From a virus: a DNA stretch of 33,042 nucleotides. Made by a program: the position numbers and the translations under genes. The DNA is taken from positions 1 to 33,042 of the IMG/VR virus record IMGVR_UViG_3300049448_000349; one strand, written 5' to 3'. Under the pieces are notes generated by a model that searched no databases, was not told the origin of the DNA, and saw only the letters and a list, made by a program, of their open reading frames with translations. Of this stretch, positions 7,964 to 33,017 are shown in pieces; the stretch's first letter is position 1, and every line of letters starts with the position of its first letter.

Positions 7964-7970
7964 CGTTTCT

Positions 7971-8408: not shown

Positions 8409-8424
8409 TAGCTGGTGTGGTAAA

Positions 8425-8448: not shown

Positions 8449-8452
8449 GTGC

Positions 8453-8481: not shown

Positions 8482-8525
8482 CCGCTGTGTTCGCAAATTC
8501 GCAACACAGGATAGAGGAGCAAAAA

Positions 8526-9047: not shown

Positions 9048-9065
9048 CCCAATGTTGCTGAAATA

Positions 9066-9101
9066 GGGTGGGCGAAAATTTATTTTTCGCCTGCCCTTTT
9101 T
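9066..9101 (+). terminator. Intrinsic terminator after 8526-9047
   Basis: GGGTGGGCGAAAA (9066-9078) pairs with TTTTCGCCTGCCC (9083-9095) apart from one mismatch and one G-U pair, and is followed by TTTTT. It separates this gene from the folE operon. Confidence 0.85.
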
Positions 9102-9117
9102 CATGTGTTCGAATTCG

Positions 9118-9126
9118 CGTATAATA
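9118..9126 (+). promoter_or_regulatory. CGTATAATA element upstream of folE
   Basis: TATAAT at 9120-9125 inside CGTATAATA, with no recognisable -35 box 17 nt upstream. It lies just after the terminator and 22 nt after its expected start point comes the folE ATG. It is the best promoter candidate for the whole 9.1-17 kb operon. Confidence 0.5.
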
Positions 9127-9153
9127 ATTTGATGCCTATTTTTGGGGGAAGCA

Positions 9154-9723
9154 ATGGTTGATTGGTTAAAGGTCAGACAAGGAGTCATTGATATTCTGGA
9201 TGGTTTGGGATTGGATGCTAGAGATCCAAACTTTTTCGATACACCGGATCGGGTTGTGCGGGCTTATCAAGAGATCTTTGCAGGTCTAGATGAACGGAAT
9301 ACCGTTGAAGAGATGCTTAAAAGTGTGTTCCCCTGTGAACACCAACAGATGATTTTAGTTAAACATGTTGAAGTGTTTAGTATGTGTCCTCATCATCTTC
9401 TTCCAGTCCGTTATGATATTACGGCTGGGTACTTACCTGGTCCGGGGATTCGAGCAAAGGTCTTGGGCCTGTCAAAATTGGCTAGGATCACAAAGCTTCT
9501 AGCTGCCCGACCTGTTCTTCAGGAGCAAGTGGTTAACGATATCGCCAATACTCTAATGCGTATACCTGAATGTCGTGGGGCTGGCTGCATTGCTACTGGT
9601 GAACACTATTGTATGCGTATGCGTGGAGTCAATCAGAGTGGCTCAATTGTTGTTACCAGCGCCTTGCGTGGTGAGTTCTTATCTGATTCAATGGTCCGTG
9701 AAGAATTCATGGACTTTAGATAG
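9154..9723 (+). CDS. folE: GTP cyclohydrolase I
   Basis: 189 residues; ATG at 9154 behind GGGGGAAGC. FolE converts GTP to 7,8-dihydroneopterin triphosphate, the first step to folate, biopterin and the 7-deazaguanines. Diagnostic motifs are SMCPHHLLP (76-84, zinc Cys78 and His81), KVLGLSKLARITKLLAARP (102-120) and HYCMRMRGV (151-159, zinc Cys153). The length matches the family. With QueD, QueE and QueC elsewhere in the window, it most likely feeds preQ0 synthesis for DNA modification rather than folate. It opens the modification operon. Confidence 0.93.
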   Translation: MVDWLKVRQGVIDILDGLGLDARDPNFFDTPDRVVRAYQEIFAGLDERNTVEEMLKSVFPCEHQQMILVKHVEVFSMCPHHLLPVRYDITAGYLPGPGIRAKVLGLSKLARITKLLAARPVLQEQVVNDIANTLMRIPECRGAGCIATGEHYCMRMRGVNQSGSIVVTSALRGEFLSDSMVREEFMDFR

Positions 9724-9732
9724 GAGAAGTAG

Positions 9733-10392: not shown

Positions 10393-10425
10393 TGTGAGAC
10401 ACGGTGCCACGTAAGGGAAGGTAAG

Positions 10426-11496
10426 ATGTCTGAATTACACACACCACGGTACTCCTGCATATTCCAGTCGAGAATGTGCCCACGTTCTTGTTCCTATTGT
10501 CTGAGCAAAGACGTTAGAGGAGATGGGACTTTTCTGTCACCGGAGCAATGGGCAGATGCATTACACATTCTGGAGTATCATGGTGTCCAGTTCCACTTGT
10601 TTATCGGTAATGAACTGTTTTCCTATTCCGATCCTGTTGGCTTTGTCAAGGCAATCAAACCCTTCTATGGGAGGTATGGTATCTATTCGACATTCCCACC
10701 AGGATGGACTGAAAAATATTTTGATGACTGTATTAACGCTGGTCTGTATAACATCTCTGGTGGTGTGGACGTCCTTCCCGGGTTACATAAGACAGGTGAC
10801 GTCCACATTGATCGCAAGGCTCAAGCGGTGCTTAGTTGGTTGGAGTATGCGCTGATGCGCGGTGTACCGGACGTGCAAGCGCAAATTACTATTCATCGAC
10901 ACAATTACGATAAGCTCTATCCATTGCTTGACTTGTGTACAGAAAAGGGGATGTGGGTTGGGTGTTCTCTAGTAGAAGCATCTGCGGATGGACTACACGA
11001 TTTTTACGGTACTGCTGATACAATGACTGAATGGTTAATACCAGCAGATGAACGTAACAAGTTTAGCGATGAGATGTACAAGTTAGCGGATGAGGTTGCC
11101 ACCGGCAGGTGGAAGATGCAGTTACCACCAACATACTTTCGTGAACTAGCAGATCGTGAAGTGAGGCGTGATCCTTGGCATTGCAGTTTGCCTATGCTGA
11201 TCTCAATTGAAGAGGATGGTTCTCTGCGCGGGTGCGGGTATAGGGGACCACTATCAGAAAAATATTCGATATTCGACCTTCGTGAGGGCGGAAAGTTGCC
11301 CATGTCTGAGTATATAAGGTTGCAGAGGGAAAAGACCAGTCAGTGCCCTGGTTGTGGAGTTGGTGGCGGGGCTTGGTCGTTCTGGTGGATGGCTGAGTAT
11401 TGGTTAAAGGGTGATGTGGCAATGGGAGACAGAATCTTCCAGACACATGCACCGGGGCATCTCTTTGAAGCGACGGTGAGACAGGATGAGCAATAA
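10426..11496 (+). CDS. Radical SAM protein with SPASM-like C-terminus
   Basis: 356 residues; GGGAAGG before the ATG. The 4Fe-4S motif that binds S-adenosylmethionine is CPRSCSYC (Cys18, 22, 25; CX3CX2C). The central part is barrel-like (ISGGVDVLPG; VPDVQAQITIHRHNYDKL). The C-terminal cysteines (HCSLP, RGCGYRG, QCPGCGVGGG) following an 'I-x-x-DGSLRGC' strand resemble a SPASM/twitch domain with one or two auxiliary clusters. Such enzymes modify peptides, sugars or nucleosides by radical chemistry. It is not QueE, which is encoded separately at 31754. In this operon it is a candidate for tailoring the base or its sugar. Confidence 0.8.
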   Translation: MSELHTPRYSCIFQSRMCPRSCSYCLSKDVRGDGTFLSPEQWADALHILEYHGVQFHLFIGNELFSYSDPVGFVKAIKPFYGRYGIYSTFPPGWTEKYFDDCINAGLYNISGGVDVLPGLHKTGDVHIDRKAQAVLSWLEYALMRGVPDVQAQITIHRHNYDKLYPLLDLCTEKGMWVGCSLVEASADGLHDFYGTADTMTEWLIPADERNKFSDEMYKLADEVATGRWKMQLPPTYFRELADREVRRDPWHCSLPMLISIEEDGSLRGCGYRGPLSEKYSIFDLREGGKLPMSEYIRLQREKTSQCPGCGVGGGAWSFWWMAEYWLKGDVAMGDRIFQTHAPGHLFEATVRQDEQ

Positions 11497-11743
11497 GCCA
11501 ACAGTTGCTGAAGTGATGATAAAATTTCTTGTTGAAGAAAAGATTGCCAATCCTCATTCGACATCTAAGAATGCCTCGGATGAAGAAGCGATAGCAATTT
11601 ACGATAATTGTGTGGCATTTGTTGAGCGTTATTACCCTGATGTTACTACAGAAGAACTCCGCAAGGCTTTTCGTAAAGTACACAAGACTCCAGCGTCGAA
11701 GATGTGGGCTATAGCGAATAAGTACAAGGGTGGTACTGCATGA
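11486..11743 (+). CDS. Small helical protein, 85 aa, unknown
   Basis: It overlaps the radical SAM gene by 11 bases and the methyltransferase gene by four, so it is translationally embedded between two enzymes. The protein is helical (AEVMIKFLVEEKIA; TEELRKAFRKVHKTPASKMWAIANKY) and has no motif I recognise. Tight coupling to a radical SAM gene makes an accessory or substrate-carrier role conceivable, but nothing in the sequence shows it. Confidence 0.55.
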   Translation: MSNKPTVAEVMIKFLVEEKIANPHSTSKNASDEEAIAIYDNCVAFVERYYPDVTTEELRKAFRKVHKTPASKMWAIANKYKGGTA

Positions 11744-12417
11744 AGTCCTATTCAAAGAAGACAATCAAGCGATTTAACCTAACCATTGAAGGTGATGAAT
11801 TTAATGATGCTGAACAGAATAAATCACTCTATGATGATCACGTGAGTGGATATGATGAGTTGACTAAGTTGTTAGACATCAATGATACAACCTATGTCTA
11901 TCGTAAGGTACTCAATGTTGGTGCAGGTTCGGGTTCTCCGTTAAAGTTTCCCCATCCAGTTGATATGTACTATCTTGAGCCCAATCCAGATCGGGTTGAA
12001 GAGATTGATGTCGATCGTGATGATAACATAATCTCTGGTTGGTGTGAGAACATCGAGACTGAACTAAAGTTTGATATGATTATCTGTTGGGGAACATTGT
12101 GCTTTGTACGTTCTATACCAGAAACCCTAATTCAGTTTAATGATCGTTTGTTTAAAGAAGGTATGTTGGTACTAGATGTAGTTAAATCAACATCATTCCC
12201 ACTATGCCAGACTGCTGATCCTGATAGTTTTATTAGAAATGTGAGTTTGTATGGGTTTGAATTACAACATCGTATCCCCTTTGATCATTTGGGACACAAT
12301 CGTGAGGGGATTCGCTTTAAGAAGGTTCGCGACTTTGACCCTAGGTATCTGCGGATGCCTCAGGCTAAGGATGGCTTGAGGAACTTCATCCCTGAGAGAG
12401 ACTGGTTTCTATCTTAG
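11740..12417 (+). CDS. Class I SAM-dependent methyltransferase
   Basis: 225 residues; ATGA overlap. Motif I is VLNVGAGSGSP (57-67), the acidic end of the second strand is MYYLEPNPDRV (76-86), and motif IV is FDMIICWGTLCFV, followed by a helix and a VLDVVKS strand. This is the small-molecule methyltransferase fold rather than a DNA methylase with DPPY or a PC loop. The lack of a target-recognition domain fits methylation of a nucleotide precursor, sugar or modified base side chain within this operon. Confidence 0.75.
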   Translation: MKSYSKKTIKRFNLTIEGDEFNDAEQNKSLYDDHVSGYDELTKLLDINDTTYVYRKVLNVGAGSGSPLKFPHPVDMYYLEPNPDRVEEIDVDRDDNIISGWCENIETELKFDMIICWGTLCFVRSIPETLIQFNDRLFKEGMLVLDVVKSTSFPLCQTADPDSFIRNVSLYGFELQHRIPFDHLGHNREGIRFKKVRDFDPRYLRMPQAKDGLRNFIPERDWFLS

Positions 12418-12427
12418 AGGAGATAAC

Positions 12428-12982
12428 ATGACACCTGGTCTAGTCGTTCTTACCAGCGGTGGTTTTGATAGTGCATTATTGTTACACATGGCAAAGCGGA
12501 TGAACTATAATCCAATCGCCCTATTGATTGATTATGGTCAGAAACACGTTCGGGAATTGGATGCTGCTGTTAAGTTGTGCGATGATCTCCAGGTTTCCTT
12601 TAAGCGGATGAAGGTTGATCTTGCTCAAGCAGTTGACTCTGGGTTGACTGGTACTTTGCAGGGTGGTAAGTATGAGGGACTGCATGAGATGCACGTCCCT
12701 GGACGCAACACTATCTTTGTTGGTCTAGCTCTGTCACTGGCAGAAGCTGTCGGTGCAACAAAGATTTGGTATGGAGCGAATTTTGAGGACCGGATAAATG
12801 AGTTTGCGGACTGCAAACAAGACTGGGTCCTCGAGATGAACAAGTCTCTAAAGATCGCGGGAAGCTACCCAGTGGAGTTGGAAGCCCCTTTGCTTGGGAT
12901 GCGCAAGGACACTATTGTGCGCATGGGTAAGCTGTACCACGATATTAAGGAAGAGGAGGTTCACAGTGGGTATGCCGTCTAA
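12428..12982 (+). CDS. queC: QueC-like 7-cyano-7-deazaguanine synthase, C-terminally short
   Basis: 184 residues. QueC converts 7-carboxy-7-deazaguanine and ammonia to preQ0 using ATP. The PP-loop is LTSGGFDSALLL (8-19), then IDYGQKHVREL and VPGRNTIFVGLALSLAEAVGA plus the conserved FADCK. Bacterial QueC is about 220-230 residues and ends with a zinc site (Cys, then CGxCxxC). This protein stops at EEEVHSGYAV, exactly where that motif should begin; no cysteine motif is found in the other frames downstream. It is either a compact phage form or impaired. The ribosome site of the next gene lies inside its end. Confidence 0.87.
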   Translation: MTPGLVVLTSGGFDSALLLHMAKRMNYNPIALLIDYGQKHVRELDAAVKLCDDLQVSFKRMKVDLAQAVDSGLTGTLQGGKYEGLHEMHVPGRNTIFVGLALSLAEAVGATKIWYGANFEDRINEFADCKQDWVLEMNKSLKIAGSYPVELEAPLLGMRKDTIVRMGKLYHDIKEEEVHSGYAV

Positions 12983-13793
12983 TAATGATAAGAAGATTCT
13001 TCACTGGAGATCCACGGCAAACGGAGGTGATCCTTCTTCTCCTACACAACCGGATTTGCCTGATGGGTTTATCACTATAAGGGAGGCTGTTAGTCTTACA
13101 GGTTTTTCTAAAACAACTATTCGTAAAACAAAAGTGACCCATCGACAAGAATGGCGTAGGATAGATGGGAGGGTATTTGTACGCAAAGACTTTATCTTGG
13201 AATATTGTGCGGTTAGAGCTAGGCTTAGGGCTAGACCTGAACCCAGGAGGCGGAAAAAGAAGTACCCTAATCGTGTACCTGCTCGTTTTTTACTGCCTCT
13301 TAAACCAGGTGAATGGTTTATTAGGACTGAAGTTGAGAGGAGAAAGGGAACAGAAGGTGTATACCTTCACTTTGTCTCTGGTGATGATCTTTCCGATCTG
13401 AATATCTACTCGTTTGATTGTATGTATAACGCGCTTAAAGCTGGTGGGTATTCTGAACTTAAAGGTTTACCAGAATGGACTGCAGTGACGGTTCCTAAGA
13501 ATCGTAATATTCCGCAGTTAGAATTTGAACACAAGTATACAAAGAGGGAACAGGGTTTAGGTCATGTATGCCGAATTGGTACAACGGATGGTGCAGCTAT
13601 TCCTTCCTGGATGAAGGCTCCTGGTTTGATGAAAGGTAAAATGGAGAGGGAATCGTTTGTAGGAAAGACTATTCTGCGAATTACGGCTACTCAAATGATC
13701 GAGATGGAGGGTTTTACACCTGGAGAGTTTGTGGACGAACGTATAAAAGAAGAAGGAAAAGCTTACTGGGGTCCTCTTTGGGATTTAACTTGA
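12966..13793 (+). CDS. HTH DNA-binding protein, unknown
   Basis: 275 residues from GTG at 12966 (GAGGAGG six bases upstream); ATG two codons later is possible. Residues about 32-82 read ITIREAVSLTGFSKTTIRKT, then IDGRVFVRKDFILEYC: a MerR/excisionase-like HTH with a wing. A basic stretch RARLRARPEPRRRKKKYPNR follows, and the remaining 170 residues are unrecognised. The site-binding architecture is clear; whether it regulates the operon or guides modification is unknown. It overlaps the end of queC by 17 bases. Confidence 0.55.
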   Translation: MGMPSNNDKKILHWRSTANGGDPSSPTQPDLPDGFITIREAVSLTGFSKTTIRKTKVTHRQEWRRIDGRVFVRKDFILEYCAVRARLRARPEPRRRKKKYPNRVPARFLLPLKPGEWFIRTEVERRKGTEGVYLHFVSGDDLSDLNIYSFDCMYNALKAGGYSELKGLPEWTAVTVPKNRNIPQLEFEHKYTKREQGLGHVCRIGTTDGAAIPSWMKAPGLMKGKMERESFVGKTILRITATQMIEMEGFTPGEFVDERIKEEGKAYWGPLWDLT

Positions 13794-13803
13794 GGGAATG
13801 AAA

Positions 13804-14184
13804 ATGGAAGAGCAGATCGCACACACTATGCTGATGAATAAGCACTATAGCCCGATGGTTGTCAGGAAGACCTCAACATGGGGCTTCCCAGTGTTTGTTG
13901 CTTTGATCACCGATGACGACTTGGCGGATCTGGATCAGGTTATTCTAAAGTTTATGCTGGATGCAAAGGCAGTCAACGGGTGGTCAGATAATATTCAAAA
14001 GATGCGCAACCTGGCGGGAGCAATGGTTGAGATGCTCAATAATAGGTATCCGAAGGTTGAAGGATCAGCTGTGATAATTTATTCAGACAAATGCTTCATC
14101 TCTAGTTTGCATGGCGATCTGATGACACATCTTAGTTGTAAAGTTGAACTTTTCGAGCTTCTCAATATGAGTACTGGAGTTTAG
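13804..14184 (+). CDS. Conserved-looking protein, 126 aa, unknown
   Basis: The ATG at 13804 has GAGGG at optimal distance; the ATG at 13798 is too close to it. The product is mixed alpha/beta (FPVFVALITDDDLADLDQVILKF; VEGSAVIIYSDKCFISS) with no motif I know. I tested it as a QueD candidate and reject that. It lies in the modification operon between two DNA-binding proteins. Confidence 0.5.
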   Translation: MEEQIAHTMLMNKHYSPMVVRKTSTWGFPVFVALITDDDLADLDQVILKFMLDAKAVNGWSDNIQKMRNLAGAMVEMLNNRYPKVEGSAVIIYSDKCFISSLHGDLMTHLSCKVELFELLNMSTGV

Positions 14185-14186
14185 TT

Positions 14187-14336
14187 ATGTCTCGTCCACG
14201 TGGGTATAAACATACTGAGGCTACCCGAAAGAAGCTTAGTGAAGGAACTAAATTACGTTATGAGGCTGGGATATTGATGGGGTTTCGTGCTAAACCGTTG
14301 TCTGAGGAGGCACACGTTATGCTCAATTCCGTGTGA
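14187..14336 (+). CDS. 49-aa protein with NUMOD3-like motif
   Basis: ATG at 14187, stop TGA at 14334-14336 overlapping the next GTG. SRPRGYKHTEATRKKLSEGT resembles the NUMOD3 DNA-binding motif (G-x-KHSEETRKKLSEA) of HNH and GIY-YIG homing endonucleases. No nuclease domain follows. It could be a remnant of a homing endonuclease or a free-standing small DNA-binding protein. GAGGAGG at its end serves the next gene or a five-codon frame at 14319. Confidence 0.45.
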   Translation: MSRPRGYKHTEATRKKLSEGTKLRYEAGILMGFRAKPLSEEAHVMLNSV

Positions 14337-14785
14337 CAAAAGATGAGAAGTCATCTAAGGAATTAGCCATCTATGTCAACCATGCAGTGGATGGACACGT
14401 TTGCGCTGACTGTTCTATGTTTGATCCACCTGCCTCTTGCAATGCAGTGGCTGGTCCAATTAGTCCAGCGGGTCATTGCAGTTTCTGGACGGCCAAAGAA
14501 AACAATCTAAGAATAAGCAGTTTCCAAGGCTTACCCGTATTTATTGAGACATCTAAAGGTGAAAGACGTAGACAAGATTGGCCTATTATGCCAGCACACT
14601 ATGGATTTATTACTATGACTAACTCACCAGAAAAGAATGATGGATTAGACGTCTTTATTGGAGACAATAAAGCCTGTCGTCACTGTTGGATTATTGACCA
14701 AATCCATCCAGATACAGAGGAGTTTGTCAATGACTTCCGAGATTCGTGGTCTTGTAACTTGCGAAATTCAAGAGATGCTCCATGA
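14333..14785 (+). CDS. Cysteine-motif plus inorganic pyrophosphatase-like protein
   Basis: 150 residues from GTG (GTGTGA overlap). Residues about 18-50 hold CADC, then C at +9 and C at +13 (CX2CX8CX12C, ending GPISPAGHCSFW), a pattern like small HiPIP-type iron-sulfur or zinc modules. From 60 on, LPVFIETSKGERRRQDWPIMPAHYGFITMT and DGLDVFIG, IIDQ resemble soluble inorganic pyrophosphatases (IE-G, R, YG-x-I, DG-x-D). The pyrophosphatase-type second half with the FDE-x-K segment is absent or diverged after EEFVNDF. Similar cysteine plus pyrophosphatase-like arrangements occur in phage proteins. Activity is uncertain. Confidence 0.55.
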   Translation: MTKDEKSSKELAIYVNHAVDGHVCADCSMFDPPASCNAVAGPISPAGHCSFWTAKENNLRISSFQGLPVFIETSKGERRRQDWPIMPAHYGFITMTNSPEKNDGLDVFIGDNKACRHCWIIDQIHPDTEEFVNDFRDSWSCNLRNSRDAP

Positions 14786-15243
14786 CGATAGCGATATGGG
14801 CTCCCCATGCAGATGACGAGATAATTGGTTGCTACCATGTACTTATGTCTAAAGAAAAGGTACAAGTATACTATGGGGGGATTGTTGAAGATGGCTGCAA
14901 GAGAGCCTCTAGACTATTCGGTTTCGAATTTTACCATCTCAGCAATCTCGCTCGTCCTTGGGATGTCGTCTATGCTCCTGATCCTAATGTGGATATGCAT
15001 CCGGAGCATCGCCGATTAGGCCAGATGGCCCATCAAATGTTTAGGGCGGGCAAGATAAGGCGAGTAATTCACTATTGTACAACGATGCAGGCGCCGTATA
15101 TATTTGAAGTACCAGATCCCGAGGCAAAGCGGAATGCGTTGAATCAATGCTATCCTGAAAAGGGAGATTTATGGCGATACGAATGGAAATATGTATTATT
15201 TGAAGGATACTGGGAGGTATTAAGATTGGATCATAGAAAATGA
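14782..15243 (+). CDS. PIG-L/LmbE-family N-deacetylase
   Basis: 153 residues; ATGA overlap on both sides. The zinc and catalytic motif is APHADDEIIGC (7-17; family consensus PHPDDE), and the second metal motif is HPEHRRLG (73-80). Members remove acetyl groups from N-acetylglucosaminyl compounds (PIG-L, MshB, BshB). It is shorter than the usual 200-250 residues, so the C-terminal part is minimal. The directly following glycosyltransferase is the standard partner of this family, so the likely substrate is an N-acetylhexosamine attached by that enzyme, here possibly to the modified base. Confidence 0.82.
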   Translation: MTIAIWAPHADDEIIGCYHVLMSKEKVQVYYGGIVEDGCKRASRLFGFEFYHLSNLARPWDVVYAPDPNVDMHPEHRRLGQMAHQMFRAGKIRRVIHYCTTMQAPYIFEVPDPEAKRNALNQCYPEKGDLWRYEWKYVLFEGYWEVLRLDHRK

Positions 15244-16187
15244 GACTGATAGTTGTACCCCAATATCCTGCGCAGCTACGATATCAATCCTGGTGGTTGA
15301 CACGACTTGAAGATTACTATCTGTACTTTGATAAGGTACTTATCCTCCACCCACCGCAGTTTACCAATCAAGCTCATTTAAGTGGTGAATTTGCCCCGGC
15401 AATGGCGGCAATTGATTATGAGGTTAGACAGATCAGTTTGTATAATCAGTTAGTAATTGATGAAGAGGATGATATATTACTTCTTTGTGATATTAGCTTT
15501 CCTGGACTATTCTCATCTGTTTTATTTCATAAGCGTCCTAAGAAATGCTTTGCCATTTGCCACGCAACATCGCTTAATAGGTATGATTACTTTGCTGCGG
15601 TGCGTCCCGGGAAGTGGAGAGTGGAAACAGGGACTAGCAAGATATTTGATAAGATTTTTGTGGCAAGTGAGTATCATAAGGAGCGGTTAGGCTGGAAGAA
15701 CACGGTGGTGATCAAGTTTCCGTTACCAAAGATTGATGAATTAGTGGAAAAGCGGTTGAGTAAGGAGCAACAACATCACCATAGTAGATCGTTTATTAGT
15801 GTGGCCCGGAAAGGGGTGCAAAAGATTGATTTAGAATTGGAGAGGTTTTTTGAATGGAGTGAGAGGACTAGTATACACAGGTTTTATCAAACTAAAGGTA
15901 AGACTTGGACTGATTACTATGGATTTGTTGAGGCTGGGCGGTTTATGATTATTACTTCCCGCGAAGAGACTTATGGCTATCAAGTCATAGACGCGTTATC
16001 AGTAGGCACTATTCCACTTGCTCCAAGAGCATTGTCCTACCCTGAATTGTTACCAGATGAAAATTTATACGAACCCGGAAGGGCTACTGATCTGATAGAT
16101 ACGTATAAAAGGTATGGAGATAAGCCCGCGCCTCCTTTGTGGGAAGACAAGTTCTTTGAGTTCACAGCAACTGAGATGAAAAGATGA
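15240..16187 (+). CDS. GT4-like glycosyltransferase
   Basis: 315 residues. The C-terminal Rossmann-like half contains FMIITSREETYGYQVIDALSVG and TIPLAP, then ELLPDENLY, the donor-binding signature of GT-B GT4 enzymes (E-x7-E variant: Glu243 with Asp251). FVASEYHKERLG and SVARKG are the preceding elements of the fold. The N-terminal half (VVPQYPAQLRYQSWW) replaces the usual glycine-rich loop. It overlaps both the deacetylase and the DpdA gene by four bases. Transfer of a sugar from a nucleotide donor is expected; the acceptor is inferred from context to be the deazaguanine or its precursor. Confidence 0.75.
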   Translation: MRLIVVPQYPAQLRYQSWWLTRLEDYYLYFDKVLILHPPQFTNQAHLSGEFAPAMAAIDYEVRQISLYNQLVIDEEDDILLLCDISFPGLFSSVLFHKRPKKCFAICHATSLNRYDYFAAVRPGKWRVETGTSKIFDKIFVASEYHKERLGWKNTVVIKFPLPKIDELVEKRLSKEQQHHHSRSFISVARKGVQKIDLELERFFEWSERTSIHRFYQTKGKTWTDYYGFVEAGRFMIITSREETYGYQVIDALSVGTIPLAPRALSYPELLPDENLYEPGRATDLIDTYKRYGDKPAPPLWEDKFFEFTATEMKR

Positions 16188-17272
16188 AAAACTATGTGGT
16201 AATGTTGGATAGCGGTGCCTGGACTGCCCATACCAAGGGTATGACGATTAACTTGGATAAGTATGCAGAATTTGTTCATCAGAATAAACATCTGTTTGGT
16301 GGTGGTGTGTTCAATTTGGACTTCATAGATCCACCGGTCTCTGCTGCATACCAGACTGAATCAGCTGAAAAGAGCTATAAGAACTGGATTGAGCTGCGCA
16401 AGCTTGGGATTGATACCATACCTGTTCACCATATTGGCGATGATGACGAGTCATACCTAAAGAAGTATTTAGAGCAGACTGATTATATTGGAATTGGTGC
16501 AATTGCCAAACTAAACGCTGAAGCTCGAATTTACGGACTTGATTATATCTGGAAAGAATATCTGTCAAATAAGGATGGTACGCCCAGGTATAGATGTCAT
16601 GGTCTTGGTTTGACTGATATCAAGATCACGCTGCGCTATCCTTGGTTCTCTGTGGATAGTACTCGTGCGATTATGCTGGCTGCACATGGTGGTATCTTGC
16701 TGCCTAAACTTGATGGTGACAAGTTCTCCTACAGAGAGATATACCAGGTTGCGGTGAGTAATCAAGGTCGTAGTCATTATCGGGGTAAGGGTGATAGTTT
16801 TTATGGCATGTCAAAGCTCATCCAGGGTCAGATAAAGCACTATTGTACTTCGTTAGGTTATGAGTTGGATGATTCTATTGCGGGACGTACACTTAATCCC
16901 CTGATGAAGAGTCGAAAGAAGGTAGATGGTAAGTGGACGTCAGATTTTGCTTCACGTCAATTGGGGTTCCCTGAAGAAGCTGCGCTTGCTGATGCTCCTT
17001 TAGTAAGTAACAATGTAGATGAGAAGAACTTGTCGGCAAGCTGGGTTCCCAGGTTTATCTTTAATCTATATGTGTCGGATCAGTTTATCAAGTATTGGCG
17101 CACACAAGGTAAAACGATCAGGATCTATAATGTAGTTGGTGGAGGCAATGTGTTCGACACGTTTGTTGTTGGATCACAGAGTGTCCCAGCTAATAGATGC
17201 TTGGTCAGTTATGCTAGGCTTTCCGGTTCCTTTCTTGATCGGTTAAAAGAGGTTGTCAATGGACATCACTAG
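16184..17272 (+). CDS. dpdA: DpdA-like DNA 7-deazaguanine transglycosylase
   Basis: 362 residues, TGT-like (beta/alpha)8 enzyme. Phage DpdA proteins exchange guanine in DNA for a 7-deazaguanine. Diagnostic stretches are VMLDSGAWTAHTKG (6-19, with the conserved Asp9), FNLDFID (43-49), TIPVHHIGDD, YIGIGAIAK, YRCHGLGLTD (136-145) and PWFSVDSTR (153-161, with the candidate nucleophile Asp158). These differ from tRNA TGT signatures and fit the phage DpdA group. It ends the deacetylase-glycosyltransferase-DpdA run and overlaps the sliding-clamp gene, so modification is coupled to replication genes. Confidence 0.85.
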   Translation: MKNYVVMLDSGAWTAHTKGMTINLDKYAEFVHQNKHLFGGGVFNLDFIDPPVSAAYQTESAEKSYKNWIELRKLGIDTIPVHHIGDDDESYLKKYLEQTDYIGIGAIAKLNAEARIYGLDYIWKEYLSNKDGTPRYRCHGLGLTDIKITLRYPWFSVDSTRAIMLAAHGGILLPKLDGDKFSYREIYQVAVSNQGRSHYRGKGDSFYGMSKLIQGQIKHYCTSLGYELDDSIAGRTLNPLMKSRKKVDGKWTSDFASRQLGFPEEAALADAPLVSNNVDEKNLSASWVPRFIFNLYVSDQFIKYWRTQGKTIRIYNVVGGGNVFDTFVVGSQSVPANRCLVSYARLSGSFLDRLKEVVNGHH

Positions 17273-18275
17273 AGAAGCATTAACAAAGGCAATTGGTTTA
17301 GTTGTACCAGGTATTGCGAGGAAGGAAGTCTTTGATCAGGCTAATAAACTAGCCTTTGATCAAGGTAATCTGATATCTTACAATGATCAAGTTTCGATCT
17401 TTCACCCGCTTGAAGGAAGCGAAGAACTTTCCGGTGCTCTTGATGGTCGTCGCTTGTACGACCTTCTGAACAAGACTGATTCTAGTAATGTTAAGATGAT
17501 CCAAAAGGGTAACAATATTGAAGTAAGTGTTGGAAGGACCACGGTCAGTCTAATCACAGCACCGGTGGCTTTACCCTTTGCTGAGATCGACTGGACTGGT
17601 GAGGATCAGATTTTACCGAATGATTTTAAGAAGGGGCTAAAGTTGGTTGCTAGTACCTGTGCGCGCGACATGAGTAGGCCCGTTTTGACCTGCGTTTATA
17701 TGGCGGGTGAGTATCTGACTGGGTCAGATGGGTATCGCGTAGCCCAGTTTAGGATTGAAGGGGCGGATCTTCCATCTATTCTGTTACCCGTTACTGCTGC
17801 TGAATTGTTAGAGGATGAGGATTACGTTATCAAGACTGTTGCCGTTGGAGAGAAAGGTGAGTGGGTTAGGTTTGCTACAGAAGACAATACTGTGATTTGT
17901 GCGCGTACGTCATCTGGTACTTACCCGGATCTCTCTGCCACATTGTCTACAGAGGGAGAGGATATTACTCTACCAAAGAGGTTAACCGAAACACTGGAGC
18001 GCGCGCAGATCTTTTCCAAGCGGGATCACAGGATTGACGAAGAGGTTAGAATCACTTTAAGTGGGACTCAAATTGTTGTTGGGGCTAGTTGTGATGGTGG
18101 AACGTTTAAGGAGATTGTGAGGGCAAGTCAAGAAGTCAGTGGTGAGTTTATGTTTAATATACATCCTGAGTTCTTGTCGAGAGCTTTAACCGAAGAGAAT
18201 GCAAACTGTGTCCTAAATACTTCGAAGATTAAGTTTACCGGACCGCAATGGGAACATGTGGTAGCACTTCGATGA
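17259..18275 (+). CDS. dnaN: DNA polymerase sliding clamp (beta subunit-like)
   Basis: 338 residues from ATG 17259 (AAAGAGG upstream). The three-domain beta clamp pattern is present: domain 1 with LSGALDGRRLYDLL, domain 2 with CTRDM-like ACARDMSRPVLTCVYM and LTGSDGYRVAQF (the tdgyRla motif), and domain 3 ending in a strand. It is the processivity factor for the family A polymerase encoded at 20136 and is loaded by the 21512 product. The length is slightly shorter than bacterial DnaN. It overlaps DpdA by 14 bases. Confidence 0.82.
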   Translation: MDITREALTKAIGLVVPGIARKEVFDQANKLAFDQGNLISYNDQVSIFHPLEGSEELSGALDGRRLYDLLNKTDSSNVKMIQKGNNIEVSVGRTTVSLITAPVALPFAEIDWTGEDQILPNDFKKGLKLVASTCARDMSRPVLTCVYMAGEYLTGSDGYRVAQFRIEGADLPSILLPVTAAELLEDEDYVIKTVAVGEKGEWVRFATEDNTVICARTSSGTYPDLSATLSTEGEDITLPKRLTETLERAQIFSKRDHRIDEEVRITLSGTQIVVGASCDGGTFKEIVRASQEVSGEFMFNIHPEFLSRALTEENANCVLNTSKIKFTGPQWEHVVALR

Positions 18276-18460
18276 AGAAAGCTCAAGGTAATGATTTAGT
18301 TGAGGTCTCCGGCGAAGTTCGCAGTGAAACGGAGAAAGCCTATAGGTTTTATGACGGGAAAGAATACGTTTGGCTGCCTAAATCTCTGTGTGAGTGGGAT
18401 AAAGGTGCTAAGGAAATGACAATGCCCGAATGGCTTGCGCAGGACAAAGGACTCATCTAA
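18272..18460 (+). CDS. Small protein, 62 aa, unknown
   Basis: ATGA overlap with the clamp gene. The product, DLVEVSGEVRSETEKAYRFYDGKEYVWLPKS in shortened form (EVSGEVRSETEKAYRF, then EYVWLPKSLCEW), is a beta-rich small protein of a type often found in phage replication regions. Function unknown. Confidence 0.65.
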   Translation: MKKAQGNDLVEVSGEVRSETEKAYRFYDGKEYVWLPKSLCEWDKGAKEMTMPEWLAQDKGLI

Positions 18461-18720
18461 TGCGTATACACATCTATGAAGAAGAACTAGGTGAAGGTGT
18501 CGAACTTATCCGCAAGGATAACGTTAATGGTAACGAGACTTTTTATGGTCTTCGTATATGGCTTAAATCACCAAAAGAGATACTTGAGCATTCTACACCA
18601 GAAGATGACGATCGTAATGCCGTAACTTTTTGGTGCCGCTCAAAGGATGACCTGTTTGGGATGCTGGTTTCCATGTCAGATGCACTTGGTTGTTCGAGAA
18701 TCACAAGGCTCGACGGGTGA
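18460..18720 (+). CDS. Small protein, 86 aa, unknown
   Basis: TAATG overlap with the previous gene. Beta-rich start (RIHIYEEELGEGVELI; FYGLRIWLKSPKEIL), an acidic loop EDDDRN, and a C-terminal helix (LFGMLVSMSDALG). No motif is recognised. It lies in a tightly packed replication operon. Confidence 0.6.
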   Translation: MRIHIYEEELGEGVELIRKDNVNGNETFYGLRIWLKSPKEILEHSTPEDDDRNAVTFWCRSKDDLFGMLVSMSDALGCSRITRLDG

Positions 18721-18723
18721 TAA

Positions 18724-19959
18724 ATGCCAATACCGAGGTTATTCGGGGATAATGAACCTCCAGCTAAAGGTGGGCTGGGTAAACCTCTGTCATGTGTATC
18801 TTGTGGTCTGTATAATGGACCAATCAACCCAAAGATGCCTCCCTTCGGGGATTTCAAGAAACAGATTATGGTTATTGGTGAAGGACCCGGTGAACAAGAG
18901 GATCGAAAAGGTAGACCATTCCAGGGACCAACCGGTAATGCTATCAAAGAAGCATTGAGTGATCTTGGTATTGATCTATTTCGTGATTGTATAAATTTGA
19001 ATGCAGTTAATTGTCGACCACCTAGTAATAGAGCACCATCTGTCCACGAGATTGCGTGTTGTAGAGCGCGGATAGTGTCCCCCGCTATAGCTGCGCATAG
19101 TCCTCGATTAATGCTGCTACTGGGCGGGAGCGCCGTTACTAGTGTCCTTGGAAGTGTGCTACCGGAAGCGCAGGACTCGAGCATTGGAAAGTGGCGTGGT
19201 TTTCACATCCCTCTACCGGAATTAGGTGCCTGGATTTGCCCAACGTATCATCCCAGTTATGTTTCCAGGTCCAGTGATAGGCCTGAAGTAGAGACAGTTT
19301 GGAAGAATGATTTGAAACAAGCTATTGACTTGCTAAATGTATCTGTACCCAGAGTAGAGATTTTACGTAATAGGATTGTTCTTCTTCATGGTGAAGAAGA
19401 GATTCTTAGAGCATTGAATAGGGTAAAAGTACGAAAAGGTCTGTTCTCATTTGATTATGAGACTGTAGGATTAAGTGCAAAGTTACACAGTATAGTTTGT
19501 GCGTCTTTTTGTCAGTCACCTGAGCGTGCGTATGCGTTTATGTTTACTGATGCTTCCGAGGCTGTTCGTCAAGCTTGGCGGGATATTCTAGTAAACGAAG
19601 ATATTGGTAAGATCTCACATAATCTATCATTTGAATATGAGTGGAGCCGCTTCCATTTTGATATTGATGAGATAAATTGGGCTTGGGATAGTATGCTTGC
19701 AGCACATGTTATTGATAATCGTACGGGTATTTGTGGGTTAAAGTTTCAATCTTTTATCAATTTTGGTGTTGTAGGGTATGAGAATTTAATCGATCCCTAT
19801 TTAAAGTCTGTAACACCGCGAGATCCCACTGCGCCAAACCGTATACTAGAGTTTATAGAGAGGCATGGTGAAGATGAATGCCTAATCTATTGCGGGATTG
19901 ACTCCCTTCTCGCCTATAGGTTAACCATGAAGCAAATGAAAGAGATTGAAGATGGCTGA
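18724..19959 (+). CDS. Uracil-DNA glycosylase-like domain fused to 3'-5' exonuclease
   Basis: 411 residues in two domains. Residues 15-205 match family 4 (4Fe-4S) uracil-DNA glycosylases: CVSC (24, 27), VIGEGPGEQEDRKGRPFQG (50-68), NAVNCRPPSNRAP (93-105) with Cys97, Cys112/113 as fourth ligand, and TYHPSY (174-179) with the family His. Residues 210-405 are a DnaQ/PolA-type DEDD exonuclease: FDYET (242-246), SHNLSFEYEW (298-307), and CGIDSLLAYRL near the end. The polymerase domain is a separate protein at 20136. The exonuclease would proofread for it; the glycosylase part may excise or sense uracil or a base analogue. Confidence 0.82.
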   Translation: MPIPRLFGDNEPPAKGGLGKPLSCVSCGLYNGPINPKMPPFGDFKKQIMVIGEGPGEQEDRKGRPFQGPTGNAIKEALSDLGIDLFRDCINLNAVNCRPPSNRAPSVHEIACCRARIVSPAIAAHSPRLMLLLGGSAVTSVLGSVLPEAQDSSIGKWRGFHIPLPELGAWICPTYHPSYVSRSSDRPEVETVWKNDLKQAIDLLNVSVPRVEILRNRIVLLHGEEEILRALNRVKVRKGLFSFDYETVGLSAKLHSIVCASFCQSPERAYAFMFTDASEAVRQAWRDILVNEDIGKISHNLSFEYEWSRFHFDIDEINWAWDSMLAAHVIDNRTGICGLKFQSFINFGVVGYENLIDPYLKSVTPRDPTAPNRILEFIERHGEDECLIYCGIDSLLAYRLTMKQMKEIEDG

Positions 19960-20158
19960 TGTTCACTTTGATTTTGGTATTTGGAATCAAAAGGCAGGTT
20001 GGATAGGAAAGTGCCCTAAACATGGTCCTCAGCAGAGTGGTCTTTCTATTTCCCTCCCACCCCTAATTAGAAATTATTGTGGTGAATGTTTAATTGAATT
20101 GTTAGATCAGTTTTGTCATCCTCTGGAGTACGTCAATGAAAATGATGGAAGCCTATAA
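19952..20158 (+). CDS. Small zinc-finger-like protein, 68 aa
   Basis: ATG at 19952 overlaps the exonuclease stop. CPKHG (about 21-25) and CGEC (about 44-47) form a CxxH...CxxC-type zinc site. It lies exactly between the exonuclease and polymerase halves of a split PolA, and overlaps the polymerase start by 23 bases. It could bridge the two, but this is only positional. Confidence 0.55.
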   Translation: MADVHFDFGIWNQKAGWIGKCPKHGPQQSGLSISLPPLIRNYCGECLIELLDQFCHPLEYVNENDGSL

Positions 20159-30785: not shown

Positions 30786-31061
30786 ATGGTATGGATCCCT
30801 CCTCAAGATATTAACCTCTCTCCACCTCCTGAAGATGGTGAAGAATTAAAGAAGACATTGATGCGTCGTCGGGAGATACGTGGCACAGGTGTATGTGCCA
30901 TGTGTGAGAATTCGGTATTTGGTCGTGATTTAACACTTGATAATGATGATGGTATTTGTGAGCTCGGGGATTTTGAAGGGGGAGATATTTTGTGTTTTTG
31001 GTGCTTTGAGGATTACGTATTTGGTGACCCTAATGACTTTACACCTGGAGGACATGCGTGA
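30786..31061 (+). CDS. Zinc-ribbon protein, 91 aa
   Basis: ATG at 30786 follows GGGG-ATAGCT; GTG at 30774 is less well placed. CAMCEN (37-42) and CFWCFE (70-75) form two CxxC knuckles. The protein is otherwise acidic, with a proline-rich start. It opens the queD-queE operon and overlaps queD. Function unknown. Confidence 0.55.
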   Translation: MVWIPPQDINLSPPPEDGEELKKTLMRRREIRGTGVCAMCENSVFGRDLTLDNDDGICELGDFEGGDILCFWCFEDYVFGDPNDFTPGGHA

Positions 31062-31513
31062 TGTATCAGGTAGTCAAGCGCTACGGTCATGAAGAAGGTT
31101 GGTCTTGTACATTCCGGCAACATCGAGCAACTCACTCTCATTGCCGGTTTATACATGGTTACCCACTAGCATTTGAAATCACTTTTGAATGCGAATTTCT
31201 TGATGCTCGTAACTGGTGTATAGACTTTGGTGGACTGAAGCCACTAAAGGCTTGGCTCCAGTCAATGTTTGATCACAAGATGCTTGTTGCGGAAGATGAT
31301 CCGCAGATTGAGTTCTTTAAGCTAATCGCAGACGGTGGTAATGCCATTGCCGACATTGTTATTGTACCCGATGTTGGATGTGAAAAGTTTGCTGAAATGG
31401 CCTATTATGAAGCGGATCGAATACTTGGGGAGATTGGAGAGAAGCCTAGGGTTAAATTGAGGTCTGTGCGAGTGTCTGAGCATGGAGGCAATAGTGCCAT
31501 CTTCTCAGGATGA
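31061..31513 (+). CDS. queD: QueD, 6-carboxytetrahydropterin synthase
   Basis: 150 residues; ATG at 31061 (GTG at 31058 also possible, GGAGG upstream). It converts dihydroneopterin triphosphate, the FolE product, to 6-carboxytetrahydropterin. Pattern: HRATHSHCRFIHGYPLAFEI (21-40) with catalytic Cys28 and His32, WCIDFGGLKPLK (52-63), FDHKMLVAEDDP (70-81), SVRVSEH (135-141). The usual HGH zinc motif reads HGY (Tyr34), so one zinc His is missing or supplied by His25 or His27. The WCIDFGGLK/FDHK signature is otherwise typical of QueD in phages. Confidence 0.85.
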   Translation: MYQVVKRYGHEEGWSCTFRQHRATHSHCRFIHGYPLAFEITFECEFLDARNWCIDFGGLKPLKAWLQSMFDHKMLVAEDDPQIEFFKLIADGGNAIADIVIVPDVGCEKFAEMAYYEADRILGEIGEKPRVKLRSVRVSEHGGNSAIFSG

Positions 31514-31754
31514 TTTTTTTGAGTTTCGGCCGAGAGGTGTCTTAGCTCATCGAGGTGATCGATTGGAGCAGCTTCGCGAATTACGGCAAGCTGGTGCACC
31601 TCGTTTTATGGTGCGACATAATCAATTAAGTCTGTGGGCATACAGACAAGCGTTAAAGAACCCTGCATACTTTTGCAAGGATGTAACCATTCCTGGTCTG
31701 CAAGAGAATTTCGTTAAGTTTGTTATGATACACTATACAGCGGGACGAACATAA
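31494..31754 (+). CDS. Small protein, 86 aa, unknown
   Basis: GTG at 31494 has GGAGG five bases upstream inside the end of queD; an ATG at 31482 lacks a ribosome site. The product contains a basic helix (LEQLRELRQAGAPRFMVRH) and LSLWAYRQALKNPAYFCKD. No family is recognised. It overlaps queD and queE (TAATG), so it is part of the operon. Confidence 0.55.
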   Translation: MPSSQDDFFEFRPRGVLAHRGDRLEQLRELRQAGAPRFMVRHNQLSLWAYRQALKNPAYFCKDVTIPGLQENFVKFVMIHYTAGRT

Positions 31755-32458
31755 TGCCCGATACGATCCTCATAGCGGAATTGTTTGGTCCTGTTCTGCA
31801 AGGGGAGGGTGCACTAGCGGGAAAGGCTAGTCACTTTATTCGCACTAGTGGTTGCAGTTACCGTTGCACTTGGTGTGACTCTATGCACGCTGTTGACCCA
31901 GATCAGATTCAAGCAAATTCTAGAAAGATGCCTATTGAAGATATTCTTAGAGAGGTAGAGGAACTACCAAAGGTTCCCTGGGTTACATTATCTGGTGGTG
32001 ATCCGGTTGCTTGGGATTTGACTCATTTATGTCTTGAATTAAAGATGATGGGTTACAAGGTTGCTGTTGAAACGCAAGGTGCATTGTGGAATGACTGGCT
32101 TGAATTTTCTACCTTTGTAACCTGTTCCCCCAAACCACCCAGTAGTGGGATGGTGGATAGGCTGGACATTGCAATCTTACAAAAGTATTCAGTTAGGTTT
32201 CATGACAATATGGTGTTCAAGATAGTTGCTTTTGATGATGAAGATCTTGACTTTGTTCAACGTATACATCGCGCCTTCCCAATGATTCCGATGTACATCA
32301 CGGCTGGTACTCCGGCAGGTGAAGTGTTTGTCCGCAGGAACATTATCGAAGGGTTCCGCAAGATATCTGAATCTGTATTAAAACGTCCTCAGTTATTTGA
32401 TGTGACGGTGGGTATACAACAACATGCCCTAATGTATGGGCGGGAGTTGGGGAGATAG
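31754..32458 (+). CDS. queE: QueE, 7-carboxy-7-deazaguanine synthase
   Basis: 234 residues, radical SAM enzyme that rearranges 6-carboxytetrahydropterin to 7-carboxy-7-deazaguanine. FGPVLQGEGALAGKASHFIR (11-30) is the QueE N-terminus, the cluster motif is CSYRCTWC (34-41, CX3CX2C), then CDSMHAVD and WVTLSGGDPV, where the usual GGEP reads GGDP. IQQHALMYG near the C-terminus fits QueE. The length is normal. It follows QueD and completes the pathway between QueD and QueC. Confidence 0.9.
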   Translation: MPDTILIAELFGPVLQGEGALAGKASHFIRTSGCSYRCTWCDSMHAVDPDQIQANSRKMPIEDILREVEELPKVPWVTLSGGDPVAWDLTHLCLELKMMGYKVAVETQGALWNDWLEFSTFVTCSPKPPSSGMVDRLDIAILQKYSVRFHDNMVFKIVAFDDEDLDFVQRIHRAFPMIPMYITAGTPAGEVFVRRNIIEGFRKISESVLKRPQLFDVTVGIQQHALMYGRELGR

Positions 32459-32623
32459 ATGGAAGAGATTCGCTTTACCGAGTGTCCGGAATGCGGTAAA
32501 GAGGTAAAGTATCTGTGGGATGGAGGAGTCATCCCAACGGAACAATACGTTTTGATTGTCGATTCGATATATCATACCAAGTGCTGGGAGAAGTTAGTTG
32601 ACGAGCACCCGACAGAAGGTTAA
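32459..32623 (+). CDS. Small zinc-binding protein, 54 aa
   Basis: ATG directly at the queE stop (GGGGAGATAG before it); stop TAA at 32621-32623. CPECGK (9-14) with CWEK and His41-region (YHTKCWEK) suggests a CxxC...HxxxC zinc site. Function unknown; the coupling is consistent with the operon. Confidence 0.5.
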   Translation: MEEIRFTECPECGKEVKYLWDGGVIPTEQYVLIVDSIYHTKCWEKLVDEHPTEG

Positions 32624-33017
32624 TCTATTCTGGTCTGATATTGATCACGCGAGTAATCGTTTGATTAAGAAGATGCGAGAGGATTCAATTGTAAAGCCTA
32701 CAAGTATAATCATGCCGGTATATCGTGGTGGATTAGTTCCTGGTTCAATGCTTGCCTATGAGTTTGATATTAAGGAGTTGATATGTATTGATCCAAAGAT
32801 TAGTTATGTTATGTCTCATTACTCTGATTTGATAGTTGTTGATGACGTTTATGACACGGGTTCGACTTTTGCAAAATTGCAAAACTTCTACCCACACGCT
32901 ACTTACGTCGCATTGTTCTCCAAGATTCCTTACGGTTGTCATTACTATGGTAAGCTGGTGGATCCAGATGATTGGTTGGTGTTCCCTTGGGCAAAGAATG
33001 ATGAAGTAAACAGATGA
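32598..33017 (+). CDS. Phosphoribosyltransferase, type I (purine PRT-like)
   Basis: 139 residues from TTG at 32598, with GGGAGAAG seven bases upstream; no better start exists before the fold begins. The PRPP-binding signature is LIVVDDVYDTGST (78-90) after the strand IIMPVYRGGLVPGSMLA (37-53), as in xanthine/hypoxanthine PRTs. The hood is reduced. It converts a free base and PRPP to a nucleotide. Adjacent to queDE it could return released guanine to the pool, or activate a deazapurine base. Confidence 0.75.
   Translation: MTSTRQKVNLFWSDIDHASNRLIKKMREDSIVKPTSIIMPVYRGGLVPGSMLAYEFDIKELICIDPKISYVMSHYSDLIVVDDVYDTGSTFAKLQNFYPHATYVALFSKIPYGCHYYGKLVDPDDWLVFPWAKNDEVNR

Follow-up and report, generated by a model that had tools for sequence, protein, structure and literature searches.

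The window, by which we mean the whole 33,042-nucleotide stretch of viral DNA analysed here, appears on balance to encode a pathway by which a phage modifies its DNA with a glycosylated 7-deazaguanine, the sugar probably being an amino sugar. That its glycosyltransferase (GT) and PIG-L deacetylase belong to a DpdA deazaguanine pathway is well supported, because their linkage is conserved, PIG-L is bound to one GT clade, PIG-L is found fused to a QueD-like domain, and the GT is near-absent from the cellular genomes covered.

The overlapping gene run and its DpdA

The original prediction of an overlapping deacetylase, glycosyltransferase and DpdA run is confirmed, with the three plus-strand ORFs (Table 1) sharing four bases at each boundary and ATGA read directly from the sequence at both the PIG-L/GT and GT/DpdA junctions. 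The inorganic-pyrophosphatase-like ORF upstream also overlaps PIG-L by four bases; the window alone carries it among 92 GT loci, and its membership of the pathway is uncertain.

Table 1. Features of the window, with their coordinates and the evidence for each assignment
Feature	Coordinates	Strand	Length (aa)	Evidence
FolE, GTP cyclohydrolase I (listed with a TTG start)	9142..9723	+		PF01227 E=2.8e-51
QueC-like PP-loop enzyme	12428..12982	+	184	PF06508; no C-terminal Zn-Cys motif, [ST]GY-type tail
h128, conserved unknown protein, operon part	13798..14184	+		In 30/60 PIG-L clusters
Inorganic-pyrophosphatase-like ORF	14333..14785	+	150	PF18823 E=5e-10
PIG-L/LmbE-like N-deacetylase	14782..15243	+	153	PHADDE and HPEH motifs; PF02585 E=8e-4, below cut-off
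GT-B/GT4-like glycosyltransferase, largely virus-specific family	15240..16187	+	315	Family profile, model, BLASTP, tree
DpdA-like DNA guanine transglycosylase	16184..17272	+	362	phrog_887 E=1.2e-33 over residues 6-180
QueD-like 6-carboxytetrahydropterin synthase	31058..31513	+		PF01242 57.2 bits (cut-off 22.4); TIGR03367 E=2.8e-8, below cut-off
QueE-like CDG synthase (radical SAM)	31754..32458	+		TIGR03365 192.6 bits, just under cut-off 206.1; PF04055 39.2 bits (cut-off 29.5)
Phosphoribosyltransferase-like protein beside QueE	32598..33017	+		PF00156 E=1.8e-4, below cut-off

The DpdA-like protein is homologous to known phage DpdA, matching phrog_7068 (E=3.7e-11) as well as phrog_887, with tblastn matching 179 phage records; among the matches listed, the N-terminal 47–63% of the query is covered and none spans more than 80% of it. 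In an alignment of 34 sequences, residues D9-S10-G11 (DSG) and D158 are kept in 95% or more, with D9 and D158 presumably catalytic-type Asp residues. Sequence profiles of three DpdA proteins gave chance-looking matches only in the PDB. At its cut-off, the canonical TGT family PF01702 finds no match in G001, a record with the same DpdA, and was exceeded in 0 of 12 records compared with 14 of 14 control genomes. Glycosylated queuosines (manQ/galQ) occur in animal tRNA, and the pathway might in principle build such a base in tRNA, not DNA; however, a transglycosylase that falls in the family shared by known DpdA phages, and not with canonical TGT, makes this scarcely probable.

Precursor genes

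FolE, QueD, QueE and a QueC-like enzyme, which together constitute the preQ0 route, are also encoded in the window, outside 14782-17272, placing FolE, QueD and QueE on one genome with DpdA. The QueC-like ORF scores 122.7 bits against PF06508 (cut-off 22), with TIGR00364 falling below its own cut-off. QueF, which the earlier sequence reading had noted as not visible, was likewise not found here in the window or in a 93-kb sister contig. None of 16 records gave a QueF profile match above the cut-off, and the six weak matches coincide by coordinates with FolE genes; its presence was rejected. The conserved protein h128, for which Pfam and NCBIfam searches gave no match, lies within 5 kb of PIG-L in 28 of the 30 clusters having it (60 clusters in total). 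The phosphoribosyltransferase-like protein possibly serves in guanine salvage. Its relatives adjoin QueE in phages BUCT-ZZ01 and PA5oct.

The deacetylase and glycosyltransferase families

The window PIG-L reaches 20.3 bits against PF02585, under the Pfam gathering cut-off of 28.2, which is passed by its PhiXhv relative. The PHxDDE and HxxH motifs, which we take to be the PIG-L metal motif, are invariant in 15 aligned sequences including that of the window. Fold matches to teicoplanin-type and diacetylchitobiose deacetylases (6iiy and 4xm2, Z ~11) were obtained for residues 1-153 of the relative L048 rather than for the window protein itself, with a PDB sequence profile search using PIG-L giving no match. 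Of the 60 PIG-L clusters, 12 have PIG-L joined to a QueD-like T-fold in a single protein, one such fusion being modelled at pLDDT 90.8 with matches to QueD (Z 12.3) and to amino-sugar deacetylases (Z ~11); the PDB sequence profile of the T-fold gave chance-looking matches only. The iterated PIG-L HMM drifted onto T-fold proteins, because genuine PIG-L/T-fold fusions exist.

The window GT is matched weakly in a library scan (phrog_4356, E=0.002), and Pfam, searched up to E=1, returns just a weak GT47 match. A profile of its family (35 sequences) matches group-1 glycosyltransferases in the PDB (E=4.5e-7), and the AlphaFold model of the window protein (pLDDT 82) is predicted to adopt a GT-B/GT4 fold, with Foldseek E down to 1.4e-8. 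Glycogen synthase ranks first among these matches, which include BshA and MshA together with capsule and teichoic-acid enzymes, suggesting a generic GT4 fold. Both BshA and MshA transfer GlcNAc and have a PIG-L enzyme as their partner. The E-x7-E motif of GT4 glycosyltransferases is seen by eye in the aligned GTs of X1 and ACP17, with E-x7-D in those of the window and PhiXhv, and BLASTP identifies homologues in X1, PhiXhv, ACP17, PA5oct and Phosso. The family is largely virus-specific and scarcely represented in the cellular genomes that were scanned, with 394 relatives in viral contigs against four in genome_contigs (the latter with a slightly longer pattern), all four on MAG contigs in the same gene context.

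Linkage across viral loci

A scan of IMG/VR with the pattern PHxDDE[VIL]IG and query alignment A6 yielded 74 PIG-L relatives, from which five exact copies of the window protein were dropped and to which the window was added, giving 70 loci in 60 clusters at 90%. A GT is present on 60 of 60 of these non-redundant loci, within 5 kb in 59, and on 47 of 47 once the 13 clusters of query contigs are excluded, A6 having been built from loci already known as GT carriers. Another deazaguanine gene (QueC-like, T-fold, FolE, QueE, QueD or DpdA) is found on 58 of the 60, with DpdA on 29 by the profiles used here; a group including L036-L039 has a divergent DpdA 6-9 kb distant, with weak phrog_887 matches in three of four contigs. 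The order QueD-QueE-FolE-QueC-h128-PIG-L-GT-DpdA, drawn from profile-set genes only, recurs in eight distinct loci.

Starting from the GT, 92 loci were grouped into 77 clusters; 80 of the loci are the best 80 of 394 relatives, and the set is therefore biased towards X1-like GTs. Within 6 kb of the GT in these 77 clusters (best 80 of 394) lie a T-fold in 61, FolE in 56, DpdA in 55, QueE in 54 and QueD in 39, with any of DpdA, FolE, QueD, QueE or a QueD-like T-fold in 74, the HMM-based counts resting on profiles iterated on these same loci. In this same set (best 80 of 394) the GT and DpdA are no more than 100 b apart in 36 of the 77 clusters and overlap by exactly four bases in 16. In a small control of 17 ThyX loci (18 found, with the query's own contig dropped), the query for which came from a GT-carrying contig, no FolE, QueD, T-fold, PIG-L or QueE (E<1e-20) was detected, with one PAPS-like gene and a single DpdA and single GT, both on L127. 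The contig of L127 also bears GT locus L083. Set against this near-absence, the linkage counts of GT and PIG-L led us to reject chance adjacency.

Cell-envelope and thiol biosynthesis often employ GT4/PIG-L pairs, and with capsule and teichoic-acid enzymes among the Foldseek matches it could be supposed that the two proteins act on another target, such as a phage or host glycan, capsule or lipid, and owe their position near DpdA to chance or a loosely shared operon, the DNA then carrying plain dPreQ0 or similar. The persistence of the linkage across diverged viruses (60/60 and 74/77), the PIG-L/QueD-like fusion, the near-absence of the GT from cellular genomes and the near-absence of these genes in the 17-locus control all argue against such a target, which we regard as very improbable. 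As a leading interpretation, a role at the cell surface was rejected on the viral bias of the GT and the PIG-L/deazaguanine linkage.

PIG-L follows one GT clade: on a tree of 129 GT representatives its presence takes three changes, against a shuffled mean of 43.4 and with 0 of 500 shuffles as low, a result that is evidence of clustering and not a probability, with the PIG-L label of L020 assigned by hand and the deep split weakly supported (55). Two rows in the PIG-L half, L193 and L047, are without PIG-L; L193 starts at its GT and is therefore cut, and L047 is not cut. No PIG-L of this type lies within 6 kb in 62 of the 77 GT clusters (best 80 of 394; PhiXhv, with a more distant one, is among these), and deacetylation is therefore not general. 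Clusters of T-fold, FolE and QueE also occur in phages with no detected GT (phiST), the GT therefore being a supplement to the pathway rather than one of its core steps.

Proposed pathway

From the known activities of their families, FolE, QueD and QueE would convert GTP to 7-carboxy-7-deazaguanine (CDG), the QueC-like enzyme would convert the CDG carboxylate to an amide or nitrile, and DpdA would exchange guanine in DNA for the deazaguanine base. For the GT and PIG-L chemistry, the product, sugar donor and attachment point that we infer are as follows: the GT would place a sugar, most likely N-acetylhexosamine from a UDP donor, onto the C7 side chain after or before base insertion, and in the PIG-L clade the acetyl group would then be removed to leave a sugar with a free amine. 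Of the sugar-modified deazaguanine originally predicted, the membership of both enzymes in the pathway is thus borne out by the linkage counts (60/60 and 74/77), the fusion and the clade, with the placing of HexNAc on the base and its conversion to a free amine staying at the level of a prediction.

The GT and PIG-L could instead complete the sugar-bearing base before it reaches DNA, building it on free CDG, its amide or preQ0 for DpdA then to insert, so that glycosylation would not take place at the DNA level. The tight GT-DpdA coupling (36/77 within 100 b; best 80 of 394) is compatible with either order, and the QueD-like T-fold of the PIG-L fusions would be well suited to binding a free base that resembles a purine; however, the pockets of the TGT family are built for small 7-substituents, and we consider this order of events unlikely, if well worth keeping in view.

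A further variant, confined to the PIG-L clade, would have the freed amine of glucosamine joined to the adenylated C7 carboxylate of CDG by an unusual PP-loop enzyme (a zinc-less QueC or PAPS-reductase-like protein), leaving the sugar held by an amide, with the GT family glycosylating deazaguanine DNA in many phages. By analogy, this would be bacillithiol-type logic (GT, PIG-L and ligase) put to building a DNA base, and we judge it quite improbable. A PP-loop gene is present in 37 of 60 PIG-L-first loci, some of which are cut by contig ends, and PP-loop and PIG-L genes co-occur (Fisher p=2.8e-8, relatedness ignored). Of 25 distinct QueC sequences aligned, including that of the window, 18 have the [ST]GY-type tail and lack the C-terminal zinc-binding Cys cluster of QueC, five carry the Zn-Cys motif (three by pattern, L234 and L242 by eye) and two are unclear. 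An ordinary QueC stands in the same position ahead of PIG-L in L234, L242 and L247, which weakens the case for the zinc-less QueC as necessarily a sugar ligase.

The existence of isolated phages with the GT opens the reading we favour, glycosylation of a deazaguanine in DNA, to direct test. Xanthomonas phages X1 and PhiXhv-15 have both GT and PIG-L, and Acidovorax ACP17, Pseudomonas PA5oct and Paride, Sinorhizobium Phosso and Synechococcus BUCT-ZZ01 have the GT with no PIG-L detected. In PhiXhv-15, FolE and QueE are present, with no DpdA detected and one sub-threshold TGT match. The main text of the one paper found on X1 contains no word beginning 'deazaguanine' or 'queu'.

Comparison with known systems

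Phage 7-deazaguanine DNA modification by FolE, QueD, QueE and QueC with DpdA is reportedly also treated by Cui in 2023. As described by Hutinet 2019 (PMC6884629), this modification employs the same precursor enzymes (FolE/QueD/QueE/QueC), encoded on one genome together with a transglycosylase of the DpdA type, the window differing by its conserved cluster GT and, in one clade, PIG-L; the main text of that paper holds no word beginning 'glycosyl', 'sugar' or 'deacetylase'. No earlier report of GT or PIG-L in deazaguanine DNA modification was found in the literature searched, the coverage of which is incomplete.

The linkage of GT, PIG-L and deazaguanine genes in many viruses of microbes points to a new sugar-decorated DNA letter. 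If this is correct, phages would carry a sugar on a purine-like base, in one clade an amino sugar that is positive at neutral pH, and such DNA could evade restriction and Cas nucleases. Two new enzymes would be responsible, a glycosyltransferase for deazaguanine and a PIG-L deacetylase acting on DNA or on the base. To our knowledge, all glycosylated phage bases are pyrimidine-derived.

BshA-BshB of bacillithiol and MshA-MshB of mycothiol synthesis likewise place a GT-B/GT4 fold beside a PIG-L with PHxDDE/HxxH, whereas the pair in the window sits inside a deazaguanine/DpdA cluster. T4-type DNA glucosylation shares with our proposal a phage-encoded GT that puts sugar on a modified DNA base; its acceptor is 5-hydroxymethylcytosine, whereas that of the window would be a 7-deazaguanine, served by a GT4-like family and an optional deacetylase. 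Mannosyl- and galactosyl-queuosine likewise carry a sugar on a 7-deazaguanine nucleoside, but theirs is a tRNA modification made by eukaryotic enzymes.

Window genes and precursor route

The original prediction placed genes for a PIG-L/LmbE-like deacetylase (PIG-L), a GT4-like glycosyltransferase (GT) and a DpdA-like DNA guanine transglycosylase (DpdA) in one overlapping run, and these positions are correct, with each four-base overlap reading ATGA. The DpdA of this 33-kb virus record has 100% identical copies on seven further viral contigs (one partial; the longest 92,966 bases), and no megablast-level match to phage records was found for bases 9000–22000. FolE, a QueC-like enzyme, QueD, and QueE are also encoded, making the route from GTP to 7-carboxy-7-deazaguanine (CDG), towards preQ0, complete or nearly so. 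QueF, which the original prediction had not seen, was not found in the window or its 93-kb sister contig. The window's QueC-like enzyme has no C-terminal Cys cluster, a trait it shares with others: 18 of 25 distinct QueC-like tails, including its own, are of the [ST]GY type without a cluster, five carry one, and two are unclear.

Coordinates of the features discussed
Feature	Record or locus	Position	Strand
FolE–QueC interval	window	9733–12417	
h128	window	13798–14184	
PIG-L	window	14782–15243	+
GT	window	15240–16187	+
DpdA	window	16184–17272	+
Phosphoribosyltransferase-like protein	window	32598–33017	
WEM34304.1 (PIG-L)	Xanthomonas phage X1 (L019)	14950–15675	
T-fold, phrog_17812	Xanthomonas phage X1 (L019)	18642–19013	
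Possible tailoring island	PhiXhv-15 (L020)	3594–13551	
Region with 1735-residue open frame	L041	12263–17470	
PIG-L–GT region	L039	7571–9833	

Genes in the FolE–QueC interval encode an SDR, a radical SAM protein resembling PqqE (TIGR02109, E = 5.6e-5, well short of the cut-off), an 85-aa protein, and a methyltransferase, and perhaps provide another tailoring step. Profile searches for three of them (SDR, radical SAM protein, methyltransferase) found no matches in the 91 other loci of the GT set, and these genes thus resemble a lineage-specific insert. The conserved protein h128, which has no assigned function, lies near PIG-L in 30 of 60 PIG-L clusters and is probably an unrecognised pathway protein. 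A phosphoribosyltransferase-like protein adjoins QueE, as do its relatives in phages BUCT-ZZ01 and PA5oct, and might recycle the guanine released by DpdA.

Linkage of GT and PIG-L to deazaguanine genes

Scanning viral contigs with a GT profile returned 394 relatives; the best 80 were combined with five diverged PIG-L loci, six named phages, and the window itself into 92 loci in 77 clusters at 90% identity, with distances measured in the cluster representative. Counting genes up to 6 kb from the GT, these clusters, built on the best 80 of 394 relatives, show DpdA (any type) in 55, a QueD-like T-fold in 61 (PIG-L fusions included), FolE in 56, QueE in 54, and QueD in 39; at least one of these five was present in 74/77 and at least three in 51/77. 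The three exceptions are PhiXhv-15, L099, and L112, the GT lying near the end of the locus in the latter two. Most GTs in this same set of best-scoring relatives (62/77 clusters) have no PIG-L, and a PP-loop enzyme occurs in 10/15 PIG-L clusters versus 1/62 others, the sole case being PhiXhv, which itself has PIG-L.

The PIG-L family scan found 74 relatives, with removal of five exact window copies and addition of the window giving 70 loci in 60 clusters. GT is present in 60/60, at ≤5 kb in 59, and at least one deazaguanine gene in 58/60 (QueE 47, DpdA 29, FolE 29, QueD 27, QueC-like 24, T-fold 18); a PAPS-like gene is present in 13. The query alignment was built from GT-carrying loci, whose contigs make up 13 of the 60 clusters; outside these, GT is present in 47/47.

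In a control of 17 loci drawn by their ThyX gene, with the query's own contig removed, FolE, QueD, T-fold, PIG-L, and QueC were each found in 0/17 and a PAPS-like gene in one, with GT and DpdA in 1/17, both on one contig already known for its GT; QueE gave weak matches only, at six loci (E = 2e-6 to 2e-9). Searching 84,980 species genomes with a nearly identical GT pattern yielded four relatives, so the GT is largely viral. All four are on MAG contigs and adjoin a T-fold and FolE/QueE or a TGT-like gene.

On a GT tree of 129 representatives (quick method, midpoint root, with weak support of 55 for the deep split), one half holds 64 of 65 PIG-L carriers and just two rows without PIG-L. The PIG-L label requires three changes compared with a shuffled mean of 43.4 (0/500 as low), indicating that PIG-L accompanies its own GT across a deep divergence, a co-distribution as would be expected if the GT product were the PIG-L substrate. 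The window GT model (pLDDT 82) most closely resembles GT-B/GT4 folds, including BshA, MshA, glycogen synthase, and teichoic-acid GTs, a mixture from which neither donor nor acceptor can be read.

Gene order and the T-fold family

The order QueD-QueE-FolE-QueC-h128-PIG-L-GT-DpdA, counting profiled genes only, occurs in eight distinct loci, and PIG-L, GT, and DpdA are contiguous (gaps ≤50 bases) in 12/64 distinct GT loci of the gene-order set. Fifteen further loci have the order PIG-L GT QueE, with a divergent DpdA 6–9 kb away; phrog_887 matched weakly in 3/4 contigs tested from this group (E = 2.8e-8 to 7.8e-6), and the L041 contig gave a match at E = 1e-10. At L041 a DpdA-like match lies inside a 1735-residue open frame directly after GT, either a fusion or an embedded element, while L039 has a PIG-L–GT spacing of ~2.3 kb, versus <1 kb in most relatives, with a 204-aa ORF within.

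A C-terminal T-fold is fused to PIG-L at 9/16 loci in one set and in 12/60 PIG-L clusters. In the fusion model (pLDDT 90.8), the C-terminal portion is of QueD type (4ntk, Z 12.3) and the N-terminal portion resembles teicoplanin-type and diacetylchitobiose deacetylases (Z ~11). Stand-alone T-folds retain three zinc-site His of QueD and a Ser-Cys-Glu in 46/46 aligned sequences; the position of the QueD catalytic Cys is not conserved. No T-fold was found in the window by BLASTP or HMM profile. The T-fold family phrog_17812 keeps the zinc His, occurs in most GT loci, and also lies near FolE/QueE in Cellulophaga phiST, where GT was not detected; it is possibly a CDG-modifying enzyme. A CDG decarboxylase was reportedly described in 2023, and the T-fold may be this enzyme.

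Named phages and proposed modification

With the X1 GT as query, 16 phage records matched, at <60% identity in all except X1. One neighbourhood was examined in each of ACP17, Phosso, BUCT-ZZ01, PA5oct, and its relative PAC2, and deazaguanine genes lie no more than a few kb from the GT in 5/5. A 540-aa protein adjoining the PA5oct GT carries DSGGFQ, a TGT-like motif. FolE was present in 7/7 and QueE in 6/6 of the named phage records searched. PhiXhv-15 encodes Gat-QueC, PIG-L, and GT consecutively, with FolE and QueE elsewhere in the genome; DpdA was not found there, with one sub-threshold TGT match. Ahead of this run lie an acetyltransferase-like protein (phrog_3810) and additional candidates of that kind, and behind it a GFO/IDH/MocA-type oxidoreductase; together they perhaps form an extended island for sugar or acyl tailoring.

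The original prediction withstands a strong test of gene association and becomes a family-wide one, the product chemistry being putative. The sequences show that GT and PIG-L are members of the deazaguanine pathway and that the PIG-L metal motif is conserved. No report tying either to deazaguanine DNA was found in the literature searched, although Cui 2023 and a 2024 MMBR review might mention one; the portions seen of PMC6884629, PMC12783734, PMC12028318, PMC13384950, PMC13282480, PMC11990801, and PMC13313380 contain no such link.

CDG synthesis and DNA base exchange would proceed as expected from known families, with GT predicted to add a sugar, putatively from an N-acetylhexosamine donor, to the deazaguanine via its C7 side chain, and PIG-L to expose the amine. 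ACP17, Phosso, BUCT-ZZ01, and PA5oct gave no QueC match, and their base may be CDG or a T-fold product of CDG; if the T-fold decarboxylates CDG, the acceptor in these phages is left open.

Phage X1 is the first independent example. A tblastn search of 50,697 phage records with the window PIG-L (E up to 1) matched X1 singly (29%, E = 1e-5), and the window GT matched five records, including X1 (E = 2e-3, neighbouring its PIG-L site) and the PhiXhv/Ep032 group (E = 6e-5). The annotated start of X1 WEM34304.1 lies just downstream of PHVDDE, with the frame open upstream, so the deposited protein lacks the active-site motif. The X1 run comprises FolE, a PAPS-reductase-like PP-loop protein, PIG-L, a 143-aa protein, GT, a transglycosylase (named as such in its record), the T-fold, and QueE. 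This transglycosylase belongs to phrog_10773, a different family from the window DpdA, with which BLASTP gave no significant alignment, and the association of GT and PIG-L therefore spans two transglycosylase types.
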